In this document: positions 3,360 through 12,511 of the stretch, in pieces
How positions within the stretch are numbered: the stretch's first letter is position 1
How the letters are laid out: each line of letters begins with the position of its first letter
Assembly: GCA_030754715.1 (NCBI GenBank)
Contig: JASLZV010000008.1
Span: 1-16,788 of the forward strand
Length of the DNA: 16,788 bases
Reading direction: 5' to 3'
DNA from: Phycisphaerae bacterium
GTDB taxonomy: Bacteria > Planctomycetota > Phycisphaerae > SM23-33
The notes under the pieces: generated by a model
Told to the model about the DNA's origin: nothing
Databases searched by the model: none
The model's input: the letters and a program-made list of their open reading frames with translations, nothing else
Program-made: the position numbers and the translations under genes

Positions 3360-4253
3360 GTGAGTATTCTTGTACATGAAGAATTCGAGGACGGCTGGGA
3401 AGATTCTTGGAGCGGAAAAATCCATAACGCTTACATGAGCGGAGACAACCTGCGATTGATGTTTCGAGAGGGCAACCATTACGGGTGCGCCCTTTACAAG
3501 GAAGTACCTCCTACTCGCCATGTGAAGGTGTCCTACATGGTTCGAACGTTATCCAACTGGAACTCCCACAGTACCGGAAAGACAATCGGGTTTGCTGACC
3601 TTCGTTGGAAAGATGAAAAGGGGCGATCCTATGGACACGGCAACCGACAACCTGCTCCTGACGGGTTCTCGTTCCGCACATGGTTTGGCAAAACCAAAGA
3701 CGGCTACATGCCCATCGGTCTGTATTTCTACCATTTGGGACAGAAGCCCAAGTGGGGGGACTCCATCAAAGTTGGACAACTCAAGGTAGGTGCTCCTGCG
3801 GTGCTGTTTGAGTGTGAGGCCGACTTCGATGAAGGCTACATCCGAGGCCGTGTGGACGGAGGCGAGTGGGTTCGCCATAATCTTGTTGTTACTGACAAGA
3901 CCGCTGTTACATGGGCATGGTTGGATGCTTATTATGGTGGGCCGGCTGTGGCTCCTGAAAACATGGCGTGGGATATCTCTGATTACAAGTTGGAGAACCT
4001 TGGCCCTGACCCATTGGACCCAAGCATTGACTGGGATGCTGTTGCTCGGATGATTGCCGACAAGGAAGAGGCCGCGAAGGAAACAGCAGAATCCGAAGCA
4101 GTTGAGCCACTTGATCCCCCTCCTGAAGCACGGGACGAGACAACCGTCCTGGCAGCAGAACTCAGGGTTTTAGCAGAGGCGGTGGATGCCTTCACGCTGA
4201 AGATGACACAGAATCAACTCAGAAATCTGGCAGAGAAGATCGAATCTCTTTAG
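3360..4253 (+). CDS. Jelly-roll, polysaccharide-lyase-like protein with C-terminal helical region
   Basis: The start is GTG with TAGGAG (3348-3353) as ribosome site. The product is 297 residues. Residues 1-215 look like one beta-jelly-roll of the concanavalin A-like class: a first strand EEFEDGW, 'KVSYMVRTLSNWN' followed by a Lys/Gly stretch, RTWFGKTKDGYMPIGLYFYH, and 'EGYIRGRVDGGEWVRHN', the strand-turn in which polysaccharide lyase family 14/heparin-lyase-like proteins and related lectins hold sugar. Residues 220-297 are acidic and helical, perhaps a coiled coil for oligomerisation. It may be a virion-associated glycan-binding or glycan-cutting protein; enzymatic activity cannot be judged from the sequence alone. 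It ends two bases from the stop of the convergent reductase gene. Confidence 0.5.
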   Translation: MSILVHEEFEDGWEDSWSGKIHNAYMSGDNLRLMFREGNHYGCALYKEVPPTRHVKVSYMVRTLSNWNSHSTGKTIGFADLRWKDEKGRSYGHGNRQPAPDGFSFRTWFGKTKDGYMPIGLYFYHLGQKPKWGDSIKVGQLKVGAPAVLFECEADFDEGYIRGRVDGGEWVRHNLVVTDKTAVTWAWLDAYYGGPAVAPENMAWDISDYKLENLGPDPLDPSIDWDAVARMIADKEEAAKETAESEAVEPLDPPPEARDETTVLAAELRVLAEAVDAFTLKMTQNQLRNLAEKIESL

Positions 4254-4255
4254 CC

Positions 4256-6178
4256 CTACCTAATAGGACATGCACCAGAGTTGCAATCATCAAACTCAAC
4301 AGAGTCAGAGCCCACTGCCACCAGTGGAACTGAAAGATCGATACTCGCAACTGACTTCTCATACTCTGCCTCTGTTATTTCTTCATATGGGGGCAGAGGG
4401 AAATTGTGGTCGGTGTGTAACAAGAATGACACGCTTTTAATCGAATTCTTGTAGTTCTTCTTTAACCACTCCTGAATCTCGGACAATTCGTTCGGCCGAT
4501 AGTAAACTGTTACCGACACCGCGTTATCTGCCCATTCAGTCTGCATGCGCTTGATCCACTCAAGTTGATCGACCGCTGACATCTCGCTGGCCAAAATAGC
4601 GTTTTCTGGAGACTCACAAGGAAACTCAACGACCAGACTGGTGCGATCCTTCTGCCCATCTAAGCCCATGTCCCATTGGACCTTGTAACCGCGACTACGG
4701 CATGCTTCCACTAGTGGATCCGTTGAGCGAAACCTGACCCTGCGAATGTAGTAGCGGGCGAACGCAGGATGCACCCCGGGAGTAACCCCCGGCAGTAGAG
4801 ACAGCGTCCCTGAGGGTTGAACCGTGGTCAAGCGAACCGACTTGGGCAGGTTGTGCTGCGCTGAATACTCCTCATCCAGCCCTGACAGATACTCGTAAAT
4901 CTGCGGCATCCAGTTCAACTGCTTGTCAGACGCCTGCAACACTCCCGTCACAGACTGACCCAGTCTCGAATTCTTGGCAACGATCTTGGTCGTCTTCTCG
5001 TAGGGATATTCAAGTCGCGTGACCTGCTTCTGAGCCAGATAAAGCAAGCGGGAAATCTCCCGCATCTGCTTCAGCGACTCGATATTCGGGAGAAAAATCG
5101 TCGCCAGGTTGCACGACTCCCCGTCCCCGAGCGCGATCTCAGCGCAGGGGTTGAACCCCTCAATGCTGTTATCTGTCTTCGTCTCTCCGAGCCTTCCAGC
5201 CCGGCGAGCCAACTTACGATTAACGAGTCCATACGGTTCTCCATTGCCGTTATACCCCTTCCACAACTCCGGCAGAATCTCGTCGTAGGTGTCGGCATAA
5301 ATGCTGTTGTTGCTGTGCGATCTCCAGGCGGGGACAGTTCCCGTCGCCCAGTTCTTGGCCCGGAGGAAGAGAACGTCGTCGGGGTCGCCGATGGCGATCT
5401 CAGCGGAACGTCGTGCCGAGCCAGACACCACTACCCGTCCAATTATGTTACATATATCTAGAACATCTACAGACCGTAACTTTTTGCCCTCTCGACCTTG
5501 CATCACCGTACAAATGTCAGCAATTCCGTCGATCAGGGCACCCGGGCCTGAAGCCGTGCCACCAAAAGTCTTCAATTCTGCACCCGACTCCCGAATCAGA
5601 ATCGTGGAGTAGGAGAATGACTTGCCCGTATCAAAGAATGACTTGAGGGTGGAGTGCAGCAAGCGGCTCCACCCTTGACGCGAATCAGGCACGATGATGT
5701 CGGCGTCGTTTGTGCGTTCGTGGGTGACGGCCACGTTCGACTTCACCTTGGGAAGTTCATGGATCTTGGCTCGCTCCACGGAAAATCCCACGCCCCCGCC
5801 AAGCATCAGCATGTCGAAGATGAACTCGAAGTCCTCAACCGTTTCAACGTTGACGAAGTAGCAGTTATTGAGGCTCGCACCGCCCATGTTCTGGACGAGG
5901 GGCGTACCCAACTGCCATAGCCCGCGGCCGGCAAATGAGCAACGAAGGTGAAACATGTGGTCGAACAGACGTTCAGCCTCAGCCTGCGTGTACGGAACGC
6001 CAATCTCGATGGCGCCGTTGATTACCCGCTGAATCGTTTCCGGCCACAGTTCGGTTTGGTCGCCGCCGTTCTTGCGGCTGTAAGTCCTGAGGAAGACTAT
6101 TTCCCCCAACCCTCCAAAGCCCCAAGGTGCCGTTTGTGTTCTGTATGTGTCGACGAAGGAGTCTGAGATTTGGGGCAT
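4256..6178 (-). CDS. nrdJ: Adenosylcobalamin-dependent (class II) ribonucleoside-triphosphate reductase, monomeric type
   Basis: The 640-residue enzyme reduces ribonucleotides to deoxyribonucleotides for phage DNA synthesis, using vitamin B12 to make a thiyl radical. The N-terminal GFGGLGEIVFLRTYSR (20-35) is typical of the Lactobacillus leichmannii-type monomeric enzyme. Cys106 (NNCYFVN) and Cys356 (ESCNLAT) are the redox pair, and NPCAEIAL (343-350) gives Asn343, thiyl Cys345 and Glu347; the 11-residue step from Cys345 to Cys356 equals that of the reference enzyme (408 to 419). The tail Cys632-x4-Cys637 is the shuttle pair. Thus all catalytic Cys are present although the protein is about 100 residues shorter than the ~739-residue reference. 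It is last in the leftward operon and also has its own promoter. The ATG has only a weak AGG three bases upstream. Confidence 0.93.
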   Translation of the reverse strand: MPQISDSFVDTYRTQTAPWGFGGLGEIVFLRTYSRKNGGDQTELWPETIQRVINGAIEIGVPYTQAEAERLFDHMFHLRCSFAGRGLWQLGTPLVQNMGGASLNNCYFVNVETVEDFEFIFDMLMLGGGVGFSVERAKIHELPKVKSNVAVTHERTNDADIIVPDSRQGWSRLLHSTLKSFFDTGKSFSYSTILIRESGAELKTFGGTASGPGALIDGIADICTVMQGREGKKLRSVDVLDICNIIGRVVVSGSARRSAEIAIGDPDDVLFLRAKNWATGTVPAWRSHSNNSIYADTYDEILPELWKGYNGNGEPYGLVNRKLARRAGRLGETKTDNSIEGFNPCAEIALGDGESCNLATIFLPNIESLKQMREISRLLYLAQKQVTRLEYPYEKTTKIVAKNSRLGQSVTGVLQASDKQLNWMPQIYEYLSGLDEEYSAQHNLPKSVRLTTVQPSGTLSLLPGVTPGVHPAFARYYIRRVRFRSTDPLVEACRSRGYKVQWDMGLDGQKDRTSLVVEFPCESPENAILASEMSAVDQLEWIKRMQTEWADNAVSVTVYYRPNELSEIQEWLKKNYKNSIKSVSFLLHTDHNFPLPPYEEITEAEYEKSVASIDLSVPLVAVGSDSVEFDDCNSGACPIR

Positions 6179-8298: not shown

Positions 8299-8376
8299 CC
8301 CGAGTTCCAAATGTCGTCCAAGGCGCAAGGCGGGTCTTCATTGGATACCGGGTCTGATGTGGCCTGCGTCGTGGTT

Positions 8377-8424
8377 GGCGGGGTCGGACCCGAGGTGGTT
8401 GTCGCCCCTTGATTGGACCCCGCC
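8377..8424. other. Palindrome-rich spacer, long hairpin
   Basis: In the 183-base gap between the secreted-protein gene and the next promoter, GGCGGGGTC (8377-8385) pairs perfectly with GACCCCGCC (8416-8424). Inside and overlapping it is GGGTC-G-GACCC (8381-8391), so the strand can fold in two exclusive ways. It follows the stop of the leftward secreted-protein gene and may end or protect that transcript; there is no T-run. Confidence 0.45.
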
Positions 8425-8445: not shown

Positions 8446-9141
8446 TCATCCCGACCCCCACAGGAAGTCGAGACCGCCGACCATGCCGCCCTGTCGGAGG
8501 AACTCGACGGCGGCTGAAAGGCGAAAATGGAACCGGTCGGGTGTGCCCGGCGGGTAGCGGTCCTCTAGGAGGATGATCGTCTCCTGAAAAGGCCAGCCGT
8601 CGTACTCGGCGGCGAACAGGTCGTAGCCGTCCGGCAGTCCGATCCCGTCTCCGAGGTCTGTGGCCAGGGCAACCGTCGTCGTGGTCGGCGTTATCGGCAC
8701 CGTCGTCGTCGCGGGCACCGTCGTCGTCGCGGGAACTGTCGTCGTCGCGGGAACTGTCGTCGTCGTGGCAGGAGGCTCAGTCGTCGTAGTCGGCACCGTT
8801 GTTGTAGTCGGAGGTGCCGTCGTCGTCGGAGGTCGAGTTTCAACCGTATGGGTCGGCGGGTGGGGCAGCGGCAGGATCGGCGCAGCCTGCCAGACCCCAG
8901 CGGTACCTAATGCACACTGATGACCCCAGTTTGTATAAGCCCCAACACGTTCAGACCACCACGGGTCGTCAAAGCGAAGCGCCTCGCCGGATTGGTAGTC
9001 GAGATACCAGACTCGTTCGTAAAGCGGCCTCGGATCTTCCGGGTCACACGGCGCGTACACCATGTCGTGGTCAGCGTTGGCCTGCGTAGCGGCAAGCACG
9101 GTGCCAAAGACGGCTACGGCTACTAATAATTTCAACATCAT
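8446..9141 (-). CDS. Secreted protein with Thr/Pro-rich repeat linker
   Basis: The 231-residue product starts with a signal peptide (MMLKLLVAVAVFGTVLAAT..., likely cleavage after ANA at 23). A short N-terminal domain with Cys32 and Cys76, which could form a disulfide, spans 24-95 and is rich in Trp and Tyr. Residues 101-157 are a Thr/Pro/Val linker with VPATTT repeats. A C-terminal domain (160-231) contains DGYDLFAAEYDGWPFQETIILLEDRYPPGT, whose spaced aromatic residues and final RLSAAVEFLRQGG suggest a small folded unit, perhaps lysozyme- or binding-like; I cannot name it. Linkers of this kind join exported cell-wall proteins of actinobacteria. The start has AAGGGG at 9152-9147. A phage-borne exported protein may alter the host surface. 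Confidence 0.75.
   Translation of the reverse strand: MMLKLLVAVAVFGTVLAATQANADHDMVYAPCDPEDPRPLYERVWYLDYQSGEALRFDDPWWSERVGAYTNWGHQCALGTAGVWQAAPILPLPHPPTHTVETRPPTTTAPPTTTTVPTTTTEPPATTTTVPATTTVPATTTVPATTTVPITPTTTTVALATDLGDGIGLPDGYDLFAAEYDGWPFQETIILLEDRYPPGTPDRFHFRLSAAVEFLRQGGMVGGLDFLWGSG
8698..8769 (-). repeat. Four tandem 18-bp repeats coding for VPATTT
   Basis: Four consecutive 18-base units (8698-8715, 8716-8733, 8734-8751, 8752-8769), the first two identical, encode the linker of the secreted protein. The array can expand or shrink in steps of six residues without a frameshift. Confidence 0.8.
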
Positions 9142-9197
9142 CTAAACCCCTTCATATAGAAAGTCTAGGGCGACATCCATCTGGTCGTCGTTTCTGG

Positions 9198-9401
9198 CAT
9201 GGCCCTAGAGAATGACCCGGCGGGGCGGGGTGTGGGTATCGCGGCTCATGTGGCCGGGTTAAGAAAGTGGGGACGCATGTGGAATGGGTGTCGGGTCTCG
9301 CATGGCCCCTGAGAAATACCCGGCGGCAGCCCTATGGGTAACGGCGAGAAGGTGGCCGGGTGAGAAAGTGGGGGCGCAACAACGATGGGTACTCGCACAT
9401 G
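9198..9401. repeat. Two-copy imperfect tandem repeat of about 103 bp with conserved nested inverted repeats
   Basis: Copy A is 9198-9300 and copy B 9301-9401; both begin CATGGCCC and share the blocks GAGAA-T, ACCCGGCGG, GTGGCCGGGT and AGAAAGTGGGG-CGCA in the same order, while the segments between differ. In both, ACCCGGC pairs with GCCGGGT (7 bp), and the flanking GCCC and GGGG can form an outer stem, leaving loops TGAGAAAT and GAGAAAGT on the + strand. The loops are purine-rich only on the + strand, which favours + strand RNA, antisense to both neighbours. The whole 262-base gap (9142-9403) is otherwise non-coding apart from the ribosome site of the secreted-protein gene. Candidate structured RNA or protein-binding array; no known motif recognised. 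Confidence 0.7.
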
Positions 9402-9403
9402 CA

Positions 9404-9613
9404 TTAGCCCCCGAAAACCTTGGCCCGCTCACGGACGACACCAATGTGATCGATGTCCTCCTTGGCGCAGGCGAGGACCTGCCACACCGGATCGCCGACG
9501 ACATCAGCGTTCTTACGCTGCTCGTCGGTCGGATCCGGCAGGGCCAGGATTGAATCGACCAGTCGATCAATGTCGGCCTGATACGACTCACAGAGTTCGT
9601 TGTAGCGACCCAT
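9404..9613 (-). CDS. Small protein (69 aa), unknown, coupled to IS110-like gene
   Basis: The ATG at 9613 shares one base with the upstream stop (TAATG). The product begins MGRYNELCESYQADIDRLVDSILALPDPTDEQRKNADVVGD and is mostly helical, with a predicted helix-turn-helix-like succession of helices (2-23, 27-38, 42-50). A longer reading from 9667 would overlap the upstream gene. The tight coupling suggests it works with the IS110-like protein. Family not recognised. Confidence 0.65.
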   Translation of the reverse strand: MGRYNELCESYQADIDRLVDSILALPDPTDEQRKNADVVGDPVWQVLACAKEDIDHIGVVRERAKVFGG

Positions 9614-10545
9614 TAGGCAGCCTTGTCGATGGCCACCACTCCCAAGTCGGAGCGAGCGGCAACCCACAGATCCCTAAGCATTGTCTTCATCACCTTGCGG
9701 ACAGCCATGTTGTGACGATGGATGGGACGGCAAGGCTCGCCCTTGCACTTCTCGCAAGGCTGTCCCTCGCGAAGGTCGTAGTGCGCACGAGCATCGTCGT
9801 AAGTGTTCTTGTAGGGGGAGCGAGCCTTGACGACACCGTTCTTGTCAGGGTCGCCCGTCCTCTTGAGGCAGGGTTGTGCGAGATTCCACACTAAAGACTT
9901 GGTGAACTTCGACCCGGCAGCCAGCGCCTCTTCCTGCGTCTCGCCCTTGCGATGCTTGCGAGTCGGGTCGCCCAAGCCGCAGTAGGACCACAACTGGCTG
10001 ACCATACGCTCGAAGAAGATTTCGCCGTCAGGCTGAACGGTCGGAACGAGGAACTTTTTGTCCTCCTTGCCACCCTCAACGTAGTTGTCGTTTTCCTCCC
10101 AGTGCATCGGGAATGCAATCACCGGATGGCCAATCTCGCCGAGAAGGCGGGCGACCGTTGGCGCGCCGACGCCGGGAATAGCGAGCCACTCGGTCATCGC
10201 TGGCCCTGAGCAACAACGCAGCATCTGCGCAGTTGTGTCTTTCGCTGCTGCCGTTTCAGCAGAGCAGAGCAGGCCGTAAACGCCCATTGCTTTCATGGAT
10301 TTGCGGATGCGCTTGCGCTCGTCCTCATCTTCGTGATCGAAATCGATCAGGGAAAGAGCGATCGTGTCGTCGTAGTGCAACTCTTCCAAATAGTCTGGAT
10401 GCGTCTTGCCCAAGGGCTCGTCCAGACCAAAACACACATCCGCATAGATGCGGTTCTCGTGTCGGATTCGAGTGTCCTTGAGGTCGGTGAGTTGTCGGGC
10501 GTAAAGCCGAAGTTCACGGAAATTCTTTTGCAATTGCTCGTACAT
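9613..10545 (-). CDS. IS110/IS116-type transposase-like protein (Transposase_20-like C-terminal half)
   Basis: The 310-residue product carries the features of the C-terminal domain of IS110-family transposases: a helix-hairpin-helix IPGVGAPTVARLLGEIG (123-139), the YCGLGDP turn (188-194) that corresponds to YAGL-P, a basic KHRKG, and a helical tail HRHNMAVRKVMKTML (276-290). A Cys cluster CEKCKGEPC (264-272) is inserted before it. The N-terminal ~115 residues are helical and acidic and show no DEDD RuvC-like motif, unlike true IS110 enzymes. It is inside a phage operon with coupling to its neighbours and no inverted repeats, so it looks like a domesticated DNA-binding or recombination protein rather than an active insertion sequence. 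The start has AAGGGG seven bases upstream. Confidence 0.6.
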   Translation of the reverse strand: MYEQLQKNFRELRLYARQLTDLKDTRIRHENRIYADVCFGLDEPLGKTHPDYLEELHYDDTIALSLIDFDHEDEDERKRIRKSMKAMGVYGLLCSAETAAAKDTTAQMLRCCSGPAMTEWLAIPGVGAPTVARLLGEIGHPVIAFPMHWEENDNYVEGGKEDKKFLVPTVQPDGEIFFERMVSQLWSYCGLGDPTRKHRKGETQEEALAAGSKFTKSLVWNLAQPCLKRTGDPDKNGVVKARSPYKNTYDDARAHYDLREGQPCEKCKGEPCRPIHRHNMAVRKVMKTMLRDLWVAARSDLGVVAIDKAA

Positions 10546-10617: not shown

Positions 10618-11145
10618 CTAGGCTGCCTTCTGAGAAACCGTCACCTTTCGTGCGGCCTCTTCCAAGGTGTCGGCGTTGAGGGCGTCCAACGCATCCAAGC
10701 CCACTTCATAGGAGGCCCGACGCGCGATGTTGCCGGCGATGTTCTTGTTGATTTCGTCGATCTTGTTCAGGAAGTCAGCACGGGTCATGTGCTTGAAGAA
10801 AACGAAGCGACCGTTACAGCGGACTCGCTTGTCCATGACTATCGGGTCAAACAGGTGAGCGTAGGAACCCTCCACGACCTTGCCGTCGTCAATGCGGACG
10901 ATCTCGTCGTAGCGGGCTTCATCCGCCTTGCGATCGACGATGGCGTTTGTGGCCCGCGACCCCGCCCAGAGAGCCTTGTCAGTGAACAGCGGGTGGAGCC
11001 ACGCGATCAGCGCGTCAGCACCGACGTTGTTTGTGATCAGCGCTCGAAACTCCGCGACAAGAGTGTCGTAGATGTCATCTTGCTCTGCGCCTTCCTTGAT
11101 CAGGCGGCTGGCTGTAGAAGAAGCGGTGGAAACTTCGGCAGTCAT
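10618..11145 (-). CDS. Conserved-looking phage protein (175 aa), unknown
   Basis: First gene of the leftward block, about 30 bases after the predicted transcription start. The product has an N-terminal Ala/Ser/Thr-rich helix, a helical segment (DDIYDTLVAEFRALITNN), then a mixed core with KRVRCNGRFVFFKHMTRADFLNKIDEIN, and ends in a long helix. First position in an early-type operon ahead of an IS110-like gene is compatible with a DNA-metabolism or regulatory role, but no family or catalytic motif is visible. Confidence 0.65.
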   Translation of the reverse strand: MTAEVSTASSTASRLIKEGAEQDDIYDTLVAEFRALITNNVGADALIAWLHPLFTDKALWAGSRATNAIVDRKADEARYDEIVRIDDGKVVEGSYAHLFDPIVMDKRVRCNGRFVFFKHMTRADFLNKIDEINKNIAGNIARRASYEVGLDALDALNADTLEEAARKVTVSQKAA

Positions 11146-11620: not shown

Positions 11621-12511
11621 ATGACCGTCACCCTGCAACTCCGCGTACTCTCTGGCGTCCTCTTGTCCTTTATATGGATCGGAGCGAACTTAGCCGTCGG
11701 CTCTAACGCCACAGCAGACAACGCATCCACTTTCTCCGAGGCTTTTCGGGCCGTACCGGGAACGATACCCACCGATCTTCCGCCCGATACTCTGCCCCCG
11801 CCGGTTACAACTTCCCCCTCTGCGTCGCCGGCGGGGGTAGTCACTATTCTGGCCACAGCAGAACCAACCCCCAACCTCGAAACGCCGAAATTGCCTCGCA
11901 AACAAATACTCAGTCAAATGGTTGAGTCTCCCGATTTCCTCCAGAAGGAATACCGGTATTACGAACGATCCCAAGATGTCACCGCGCTCCAGATAGAACT
12001 CGGAATTCACTCTGTCGACGGCATCTACGGACCAGTCACACGCCGCGCCCACATCGAGGCGCTCGGCGGTCCACACAACGCCGTCATCATCTTCTATCCG
12101 GAACTCTTCGAGACGCCGACACCGTGTTCACATGGATGTCTGCCGGGCGACAGCCATTACGAACTCCCAACCCTCGGGGAACTCATCCGCCAATACTTCA
12201 AGCCGGAACATCACGAACTAGCCCACAAGATTGCGTTCTGCGAGTCCAGCGCGCAAAGTTGGCATATCGGGTCTGAGGTGGTTTCACACGCCTTCGCCAT
12301 CGGATGGTTCCAACATCTCGCCAAATACTGGCCGGAGCGTTCCGAGAAAGCCGGATGGGGCGAGTACCACCCATTCCACGCCGAAGCCAATGTCGCTGTC
12401 GCTGCGTGGCTCTTCTACGGCAGTGGAATTCATCACTGGAACCCATCACGAGCCTGCTGGGGTGCTACCAATCAGCCCCCACCCACGACCTCGTCTCTCC
12501 CGCCGGCATAG
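11621..12511 (+). CDS. Secreted peptidoglycan hydrolase with peptidoglycan-binding-like repeat and lysozyme-like/SLT domain
   Basis: The 296-residue product begins with a signal peptide (about 1-32), then a Pro/Thr/Ser linker (45-90). Residues 117-150 hold SVDGIYGPVTRRA (131-143), the core of the PG_binding_1 repeat. The C-terminal domain (195-282) is lysozyme-like: KIAFCESS (204-210) with candidate catalytic Glu208, AFAIGWFQHL (225-234), NVAVAAWLFYGSGIHHWNPSRACW; Cys207 and Cys279 may form a disulfide, as in actinobacterial transglycosylase-like proteins. It cleaves peptidoglycan outside the membrane, either for exported lysis or virion entry. There is no Shine-Dalgarno sequence, but TAAACT lies eight bases before the ATG. 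It is followed by a hairpin terminator. It may equally be a secreted lysin or a wall-remodelling enzyme. Confidence 0.85.
   Translation: MTVTLQLRVLSGVLLSFIWIGANLAVGSNATADNASTFSEAFRAVPGTIPTDLPPDTLPPPVTTSPSASPAGVVTILATAEPTPNLETPKLPRKQILSQMVESPDFLQKEYRYYERSQDVTALQIELGIHSVDGIYGPVTRRAHIEALGGPHNAVIIFYPELFETPTPCSHGCLPGDSHYELPTLGELIRQYFKPEHHELAHKIAFCESSAQSWHIGSEVVSHAFAIGWFQHLAKYWPERSEKAGWGEYHPFHAEANVAVAAWLFYGSGIHHWNPSRACWGATNQPPPTTSSLPPA

Follow-up and report, generated by a model that had tools for sequence, protein, structure and literature searches.

The 16,788-nt stretch of contig JASLZV010000008.1 (assembly GCA_030754715.1, filed under Phycisphaerae bacterium), which we analysed over its whole length and refer to as the window, carries beside a gene for a Nop-domain protein a run of five consecutive ∼51-nt hairpins on the minus strand (9164-9412), the strand of both flanking genes. 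Two further hairpins form a second array at 8328-8424 (minus strand). We conclude that this feature is very probably an array of stem-loop guides belonging to a TIGR-TasA system of a phage, and we hold with hardly less confidence that this is the best explanation of the observations overall. The window system is an additional member of the already described TIGR-Tas family. In those parts of the published account that are drawn on here and below (Faure et al. 2025, PMC12045711), TIGR-TasA systems with stem-loop arrays use two 9-nt spacers per hairpin to guide Tas to DNA, spacers A and B pairing with opposite DNA strands. The window shares with the stem-loop loci described there a nuclease-less Nop-domain protein adjoining the hairpin run, two short spacers per loop framed by motifs at the box C and box D positions, palindromic stems of free sequence that replace the edge repeats, and subarrays around the gene; its spacers are separated by a conserved 9-mer, CGATACCCA, an arrangement given in that account as one of two. 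A second conserved gene, differing spacers between near-identical phages and guide units inside the reading frame in a sister lineage go beyond the descriptions in the same parts of PMC12045711.

Layout of the arrays and the Tas-like gene

On the minus strand each hairpin of the main array follows one plan, a stem of 5-8 bp closing a loop of 30-31 nt that reads CA-N9-CGATACCCA-N9-C, the core being CGATACCCA or a near-match and TA replacing CA in the first unit. Stem types alternate along the array, ACCCGGC/GCCGGGT being followed by G-rich/C-rich arms, and pyrimidine-rich linkers (CTTTCT and similar) separate the hairpins. The units and the gene are as follows; the stretches used for comparison carry L numbers.

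9613-10545, minus strand: tas-like gene, 310 aa, Nop-domain protein with no recognised nuclease domain (TasA type)
9370-9412, minus strand: hairpin U1, stem GGGGGC/GCCCCC, loop of 31 nt, the most divergent loop of the set
9318-9361, minus strand: hairpin U2, stem ACCCGGC/GCCGGGT, spacers approximately CCTTCTCGC and TAGGGCTGC
9270-9309, minus strand: hairpin U3, stem GGGGC/GTCCC with one G-U pair, spacers TGCGAGACC and TTCCACATG
9215-9259, minus strand: hairpin U4, stem ACCCGGC/GCCGGGT, spacers different in each of the window, L003, L219 and L176, the stem being either retained or altered in both arms
9164-9209, minus strand: hairpin U5, stem TCTAGGGC/GCCCTAGA, spacers equal in the window, L003, L219 and L176
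8377-8424, minus strand: second array, hairpin 1, stem GGCGGGGTC/GACCCCGCC
8328-8365, minus strand: second array, hairpin 2, whose inner stem AGGC/GCCT is weak and imperfect in the window and has 7 bp in L219

A finder with fixed thresholds returned 5 hairpin units in the window, whereas 200 dinucleotide shuffles averaged 0.12 and never exceeded 1; the five observed units comprise four minus-strand units in the two array regions and one solitary plus-strand unit, while U1, U3 and the weak unit at 8328-8365 fell below the thresholds. The solitary hairpin (11746-11787, plus strand; TCGGGC, CG-N9-CGATACCCA-N9-C, GCCCGA) lies inside the open reading frame (ORF) 11621-12511 (plus strand), and the chance expectation for such a unit is ∼0.12 per window.

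A sequence-only reading had described this region as a two-copy 103-bp repeat at 9198-9401 that might be a structured RNA. The repeat exists, as two direct-repeat blocks 101-103 nt apart (42 nt at 79% and 21 nt at 86%) in a gap at 9142-9403 flanked by two minus-strand ORFs; the ACCCGGC/GCCGGGT pairing occurs in both copies, and stems are preserved with the intervening stretches changed, as had been noted. The true unit, however, is the ∼51-nt hairpin: 103 bp corresponds to two hairpins with alternating stems, which explains why a longer repeat was perceived. The five hairpins extend beyond both of the limits first given, and the outer GCCC/GGGG pair connects arms that belong to adjacent hairpins. 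The plus strand had been taken as the sense strand, whereas minus is most likely, because every one of the 48 arrays found on the 28 sources that have a Tas ORF shares the strand of the tas gene. The purine runs seen on the plus strand are the complement of the pyrimidine linkers. An antisense RNA is not supported, since the array reads in the same direction as the flanking genes.

The best PDB matches of the protein encoded at 9613-10545 were TasH and TasR, both in sequence and in fold, and the 310-aa model aligns over its full length, with TasH from residue 65 onward and with TasR from residue 110 onward. A family search gave this protein no nuclease family; a solo Nop domain was recognised and no HNH or RuvC nuclease, which is the TasA type. 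A match to the designed protein 7uek (E 3.1e-5) was disregarded. TIGR-TasH, from Salicola phage CGphi29, and TIGR-TasR share a homologous Nop domain with the window protein, and their arrays share spacer pairs of 8-9 nt framed by CCA; unlike the window, they carry HNH or RuvC nucleases, and their arrays have edge and loop repeats at a ∼36-nt period with no long stems. The match to box C/D snoRNP proteins (Nop5, Nop56/58) and Prp31, which act on RNA, was weak and within a range that may be chance for helical proteins.

Gene and array occur together. Among 248 stretches (L003-L250), a Tas ORF was present in 27 of the 44 with an array versus 1 of the 204 without (Fisher p 1.9e-23), and in that single array-less stretch, L029, four core motifs spaced 46-50 nt apart escaped the stem threshold. 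The genome bin of the window contains one Tas match, that of the window itself. The window reads as a phage contig, and a WhiB-like protein that it also encodes suggests an actinobacterial host.

Stem covariation and apparent spacer replacement among phages

Successive pattern scans of viral contigs returned 11, 77 and at least 120 stretches, many of them false (coding or other simple repeats, as in L045, L046, L055, L068, L072, L075, L081, L085 and L089, among others), and, as the third scan gave at least 120, family size is a lower bound. The unit finder delimited 67 arrays of at least two units on 47 sources, a count in which the window and its piece L001 are included along with duplicates and some doubtful cases, and in which some two-unit arrays are perhaps due to chance. 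Of 53 genome contig stretches, only L111 had an array by this finder, and most units of L002 are repeated there. L002, like L268, comes from another contig of the window's genome bin (G000:C441), which carries 12 such units over about 770 bases. In L268, a 9.1-kb contig, the 12-unit array lies at about 3910-4690 (plus strand) and agrees with the window in stems and linkers; this contig and that of the window may both derive from a single phage in which this array would be served in trans.

Throughout the family the loop is constant and the stem free, so that the arms are unrelated yet complementary between phages and, in some phages, between hairpins too. We measured Watson-Crick pairing at 319 distinct sites from 46 array sources, chosen by loop letters alone, the sources themselves having been picked partly by their stems. 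The five innermost positions were paired in 90, 84, 83, 82 and 82% of sites, versus 40, 19, 37, 28 and 20% at 350 sites of 213 control sources, a contrast weakened by the few hairpin-bearing phage stretches among the controls (L256-L259, L261, L262). All six innermost pairs were formed, G-U allowed, at 215 of the 319 sites; pairing fell to 2-61% when the 3′ arm was shifted by 1-3 bases, and the 5′ arms comprised 152 different 6-mers. L001, L021, L053, L054, L111 and L244 were left out of this test as duplicates or doubtful. Each spacer is preceded by CCA at the box C position and followed by a conserved CG at the box D position (C 96% and G 99% after spacer A, C 92% and G 76% after spacer B).

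The structured RNA first suspected is thereby borne out by base-pair covariation across many phages, and both covariation and homologs outside this genome exist. Folding of the copies on both strands, which had been proposed as a check, gave little support from the single sequence; covariation among homologs gave it. As judged from the sequences compared, structural support for the array is comparative, coming from pairing across phages and little from single-sequence folding.

Some arrays depart from this plan. In L189 (7791-8207, minus strand) hairpins follow at a strict 45-nt period, and the 15-nt stretch between loops can pair to either side, so that neighbouring hairpins compete for arms. 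L040 has alternating GAGCGAACCA / CGATACCCA / GAGTGAGCCA repeats and no clear stems, and palindromes with other loop cores lie in L263, upstream of gp255 of Arthrobacter phage Talia1610; both are further array forms.

We then compared arrays of near-identical phages. The region is identical to the window at 652 of 670 aligned bases in L003, 644 of 668 in L219 and 418 of 438 in L176, which has two additional units. The U4 spacers differ in all four phages while those of U3 and U5 are unchanged, and in L219 both arms of U4 are altered together (ACCCGCC/GGCGGGT) with pairing retained. Of 27 matched unit pairs in this group, 12 had all 18 spacer letters equal, 12 had 10 or fewer and 3 were intermediate, stems being 97% and cores 89% equal; window U3 was excluded as below threshold, and a few pairs are possibly mismatched because U2 and U4 share a stem. 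A second group, of five mycobacteriophages (EnzoK and four filed as Fromanvirus, which we take to be cluster A1), was 94-98% identical in the tas part and 67-84% in the array part; of its 13 unit pairs, 11 agreed at no more than 9 of the 18 spacer letters and 2 agreed at 17 or 18, with stems 97% equal. On these alignments, the change looks like replacement of whole spacers instead of slow drift. In L222 (2817-3165, minus strand) and L176 (514-762, minus strand) one spacer A is reused with different spacers B, in 3 of 6 and 2 of 5 units respectively, as if the spacer halves were renewed separately.

Proposed mechanism and competing explanations

By extension from Faure et al. 2025, the array would be transcribed together with its neighbours, the transcript would be cut between hairpins into single stem-loop RNAs, a Tas dimer would take these up, and the spacer pair would recognise one ∼18-bp target, each spacer on a different strand. 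Since no nuclease is recognised in the window Tas, by analogy it most likely binds, bends and blocks its target and does not cut it. Its role may be to block, under the direction of the guides, rival phages, plasmids or genes of the host, a reading to which we would give slightly less than an even chance. The parts of PMC12045711 used here leave open what the natural targets are, where spacers come from and what nuclease-less TasA does, partly because most systems lie on metagenomic contigs.

Several observations weigh against reading the window as a TIGR-TasA system. The box D position is CG, against the UG of published TasR arrays; motifs can diverge according to the same source (PMC12045711, in part). 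The window protein scores 85.7 bits on NCBIfam NF052498 (TIGR_Tas_endo), short of the cut-off of 100, and is therefore not placed in that equivalog, whose name also claims an endonuclease; its relatives L239 (194.4 bits) and L254 (206.5 bits) exceed the cut-off. Seventeen of the 44 array stretches have no Tas ORF, some ending near the array but several having kilobases on both sides (for example L071, L073, L088 and L183). The folding energy of the window array is ordinary on the minus strand (z -0.31, -0.62, -0.95), and by z the plus strand folds better (-2.54, -0.83, -0.63). Finally, no target was found in any search run, which covered the stretches analysed, phage records, genomes and viral contigs.

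In these searches, 306 spacer pairs scanned in a general geometry across 2.41 Mb gave 4480 near-matches versus 4460 in the control, and with the published geometry 334 pairs over the same 2.41 Mb gave 0, 5, 162 and 2377 matches at 0, 1, 2 and 3 mismatches versus 1, 8, 156 and 2245 for re-dealt pairs, which amounts to no excess. Two pairs from cultured phages had no match in 50,697 phage records, where BLAST detection of an 18-mer had no positive control, and two window pairs had 0 matches in 60 genomes (the bin and 59 relatives). Three window pairs gave 1, 0 and 1 single matches in viral contigs, which we judged to be chance; the stretches concerned have 42% and 48% GC and no hairpin unit. For natural hosts and rival phages these searches are a weak test.

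The negative target searches, the divergence of U1 and the imperfect stem of the hairpin at 8328-8365 would also suit a TIGR array that has decayed and is out of use in this phage. We consider this improbable: the Tas ORF is intact, L003 and L219 carry it at 98-99% identity, and the two arms of U4 in L219 changed in concert.

A remnant of an IS110-type transposase, with bridge-RNA-like hairpins serving DNA mobility, is very improbable. The window protein scores 12.3 bits on NCBIfam IS110 (cut-off 140), TasH and TasR are better matches in sequence and fold, and the 310-residue model begins at the coiled coil, which leaves no room for the IS110 DEDD domain. IS110/IS621 elements combine that domain with one two-loop bridge RNA, and neither was seen in the window, whose many hairpins are single-looped. 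The bridge-RNA idea was given up for TIGR-Tas on the NCBIfam scores and the PDB sequence and fold matches.

The array lies just upstream of the gene at 8446-9141 (minus strand) and on its strand, a position in which it could be a cis-acting leader of that gene (a tandem riboswitch or attenuator). We give this explanation scarcely any credence. Nothing was found pointing to a riboswitch-like leader, and the Rfam search once suggested left the array without a family match: in Rfam 15 no covariance model matched the window at gathering score, nor did any match the arrays of 9 sources, or the window's own piece L001, at E up to 10. Arrays of relatives stand upstream of tas, downstream of it and within coding frames, with differing neighbours, and the loop letters that would bind a ligand vary between near-identical phages.

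Equally hard to credit is a repeat array that acts as DNA (operator, replication or partition sites) and is palindromic by coincidence, for which the conserved 9-mer, its regular spacing and the ParB-like gene beside some published TasA loci (PMC12045711, in part) could be cited: the unrelated yet complementary arms, together with the single fixed orientation of the 9-mer on the tas strand, point to a folded single strand. The plain binding array of the sequence-only reading is not supported.

Neighbouring genes, cultured relatives and guides inside the tas frame

Two genes accompany tas in the window.

10618-11145, minus strand: partner gene of 175 aa immediately upstream of tas, with a weak link to a phrog_4604-related family
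9404-9613, minus strand: small ORF between tas and the array, its start codon overlapping the tas stop as judged from the sequence

A profile seeded with LonelyBoi gp45 (phrog_4604) found the partner gene in 25 sources, all 25 with arrays and 23 with a Tas ORF; it adjoins tas upstream in 21 of the 23 and downstream in L019 and L220. The gene was present in 11 of 11 cultured actinophages tested, and the family was not detected in the one Salicola gene tested. The window copy is linked through L220 at E 9.5e-5, in a profile that possibly already includes it; it had no phrog_4604 match of its own and no confident Pfam or NCBIfam family, and its weak model (predicted TM score, pTM, 0.49) had no PDB fold match. 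A ParB-like partner is reported for TasA loci with dual-repeat arrays (PMC12045711, in part); our family searches gave no ParB match. The small ORF, whose 3′ end is overlapped by the 5′ arm of U1, is also found in L003, L219 and L005, and partly in L176.

Of 50,697 phage records, 86 were matched in a tblastn search with gp42 of Gordonia phage Morrissey; 76 are from Mycobacterium, 5 from Gordonia, 2 from Salicola and 1 each from Rhodococcus, Arthrobacter and Microcystis. This search, run with a relative's protein, independently recovered Salicola phage CGphi29, one of the three main systems in the parts of PMC12045711 used here. Hairpin units lie at tas in 10 of 12 phages examined (Morrissey, LonelyBoi, Rich, prophiFSAT01-1, Froghopper, EnzoK, Corvo, BENtherdunthat, Euphoria and Pari); Talia1610 has palindromes upstream of the gene, seen by eye alone, the Salicola phage has the dual-repeat array form, and in Streptomyces phage TurkishDelight, which is not one of the 12 and whose Tas match is weak (E 1e-4), the unit finder detected no array. 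The tas genes among these matches are recorded as transposase, hypothetical protein or DNA binding domain protein, and such names hide the systems in current annotation. Cultured Gordonia and Mycobacterium phages offer systems with laboratory hosts, as against mostly metagenomic ones, and near-identical phages with different spacers are natural before-and-after pairs for the study of spacer turnover and targets.

Hairpin units are contained in the tas frame itself in 19 of 31 Tas frames, where they precede the Nop domain and in some cases fall between the conserved motifs of that domain; deposited tas coding sequences with internal units are those of LonelyBoi, BENtherdunthat, Rich and Morrissey. 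Among units in arrays, the cores take codon phases 2, 1 and 0 in 74, 36 and 3 cases inside the tas frame, versus 48, 29 and 34 outside. The in-frame array (2139 codons) has 24 and 48 stops in the other two frames and 41 in shuffles; the tas frame has none, by construction. In the window lineage the main array is intergenic, its first arm alone overlapping the small ORF, and on present sequences guides inside the tas frame are a feature of the sister lineage, not of the window's.

A joint proposal, which we regard as rather doubtful, is that spacer pairs are swapped rapidly in a fixed hairpin frame, with no recognised CRISPR-type adaptation genes in the listed neighbourhoods, the upstream partner aiding guide renewal or Tas function, and that in the sister lineage guides double as tas coding sequence, so that guide excision would destroy the tas message and limit the protein.

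The 262-base gap had no similar stretch among annotated phages, and a promoter and terminator scan of the window gave about the shuffle level and no more. A presumed resemblance of GATACCC to the 790 loop of 16S rRNA was dropped. After the second hairpin group, a promoter-like TTGACA/TAGAAT with 18-nt spacing matches 11 of 12 letters (8298-8269, minus strand), which is a weak class of evidence. The product of the gene at 8446-9141, after the main array, had no match in family searches and contains a low-complexity stretch rich in Thr, Pro and Val that is encoded by GTCGTC-type repeats.
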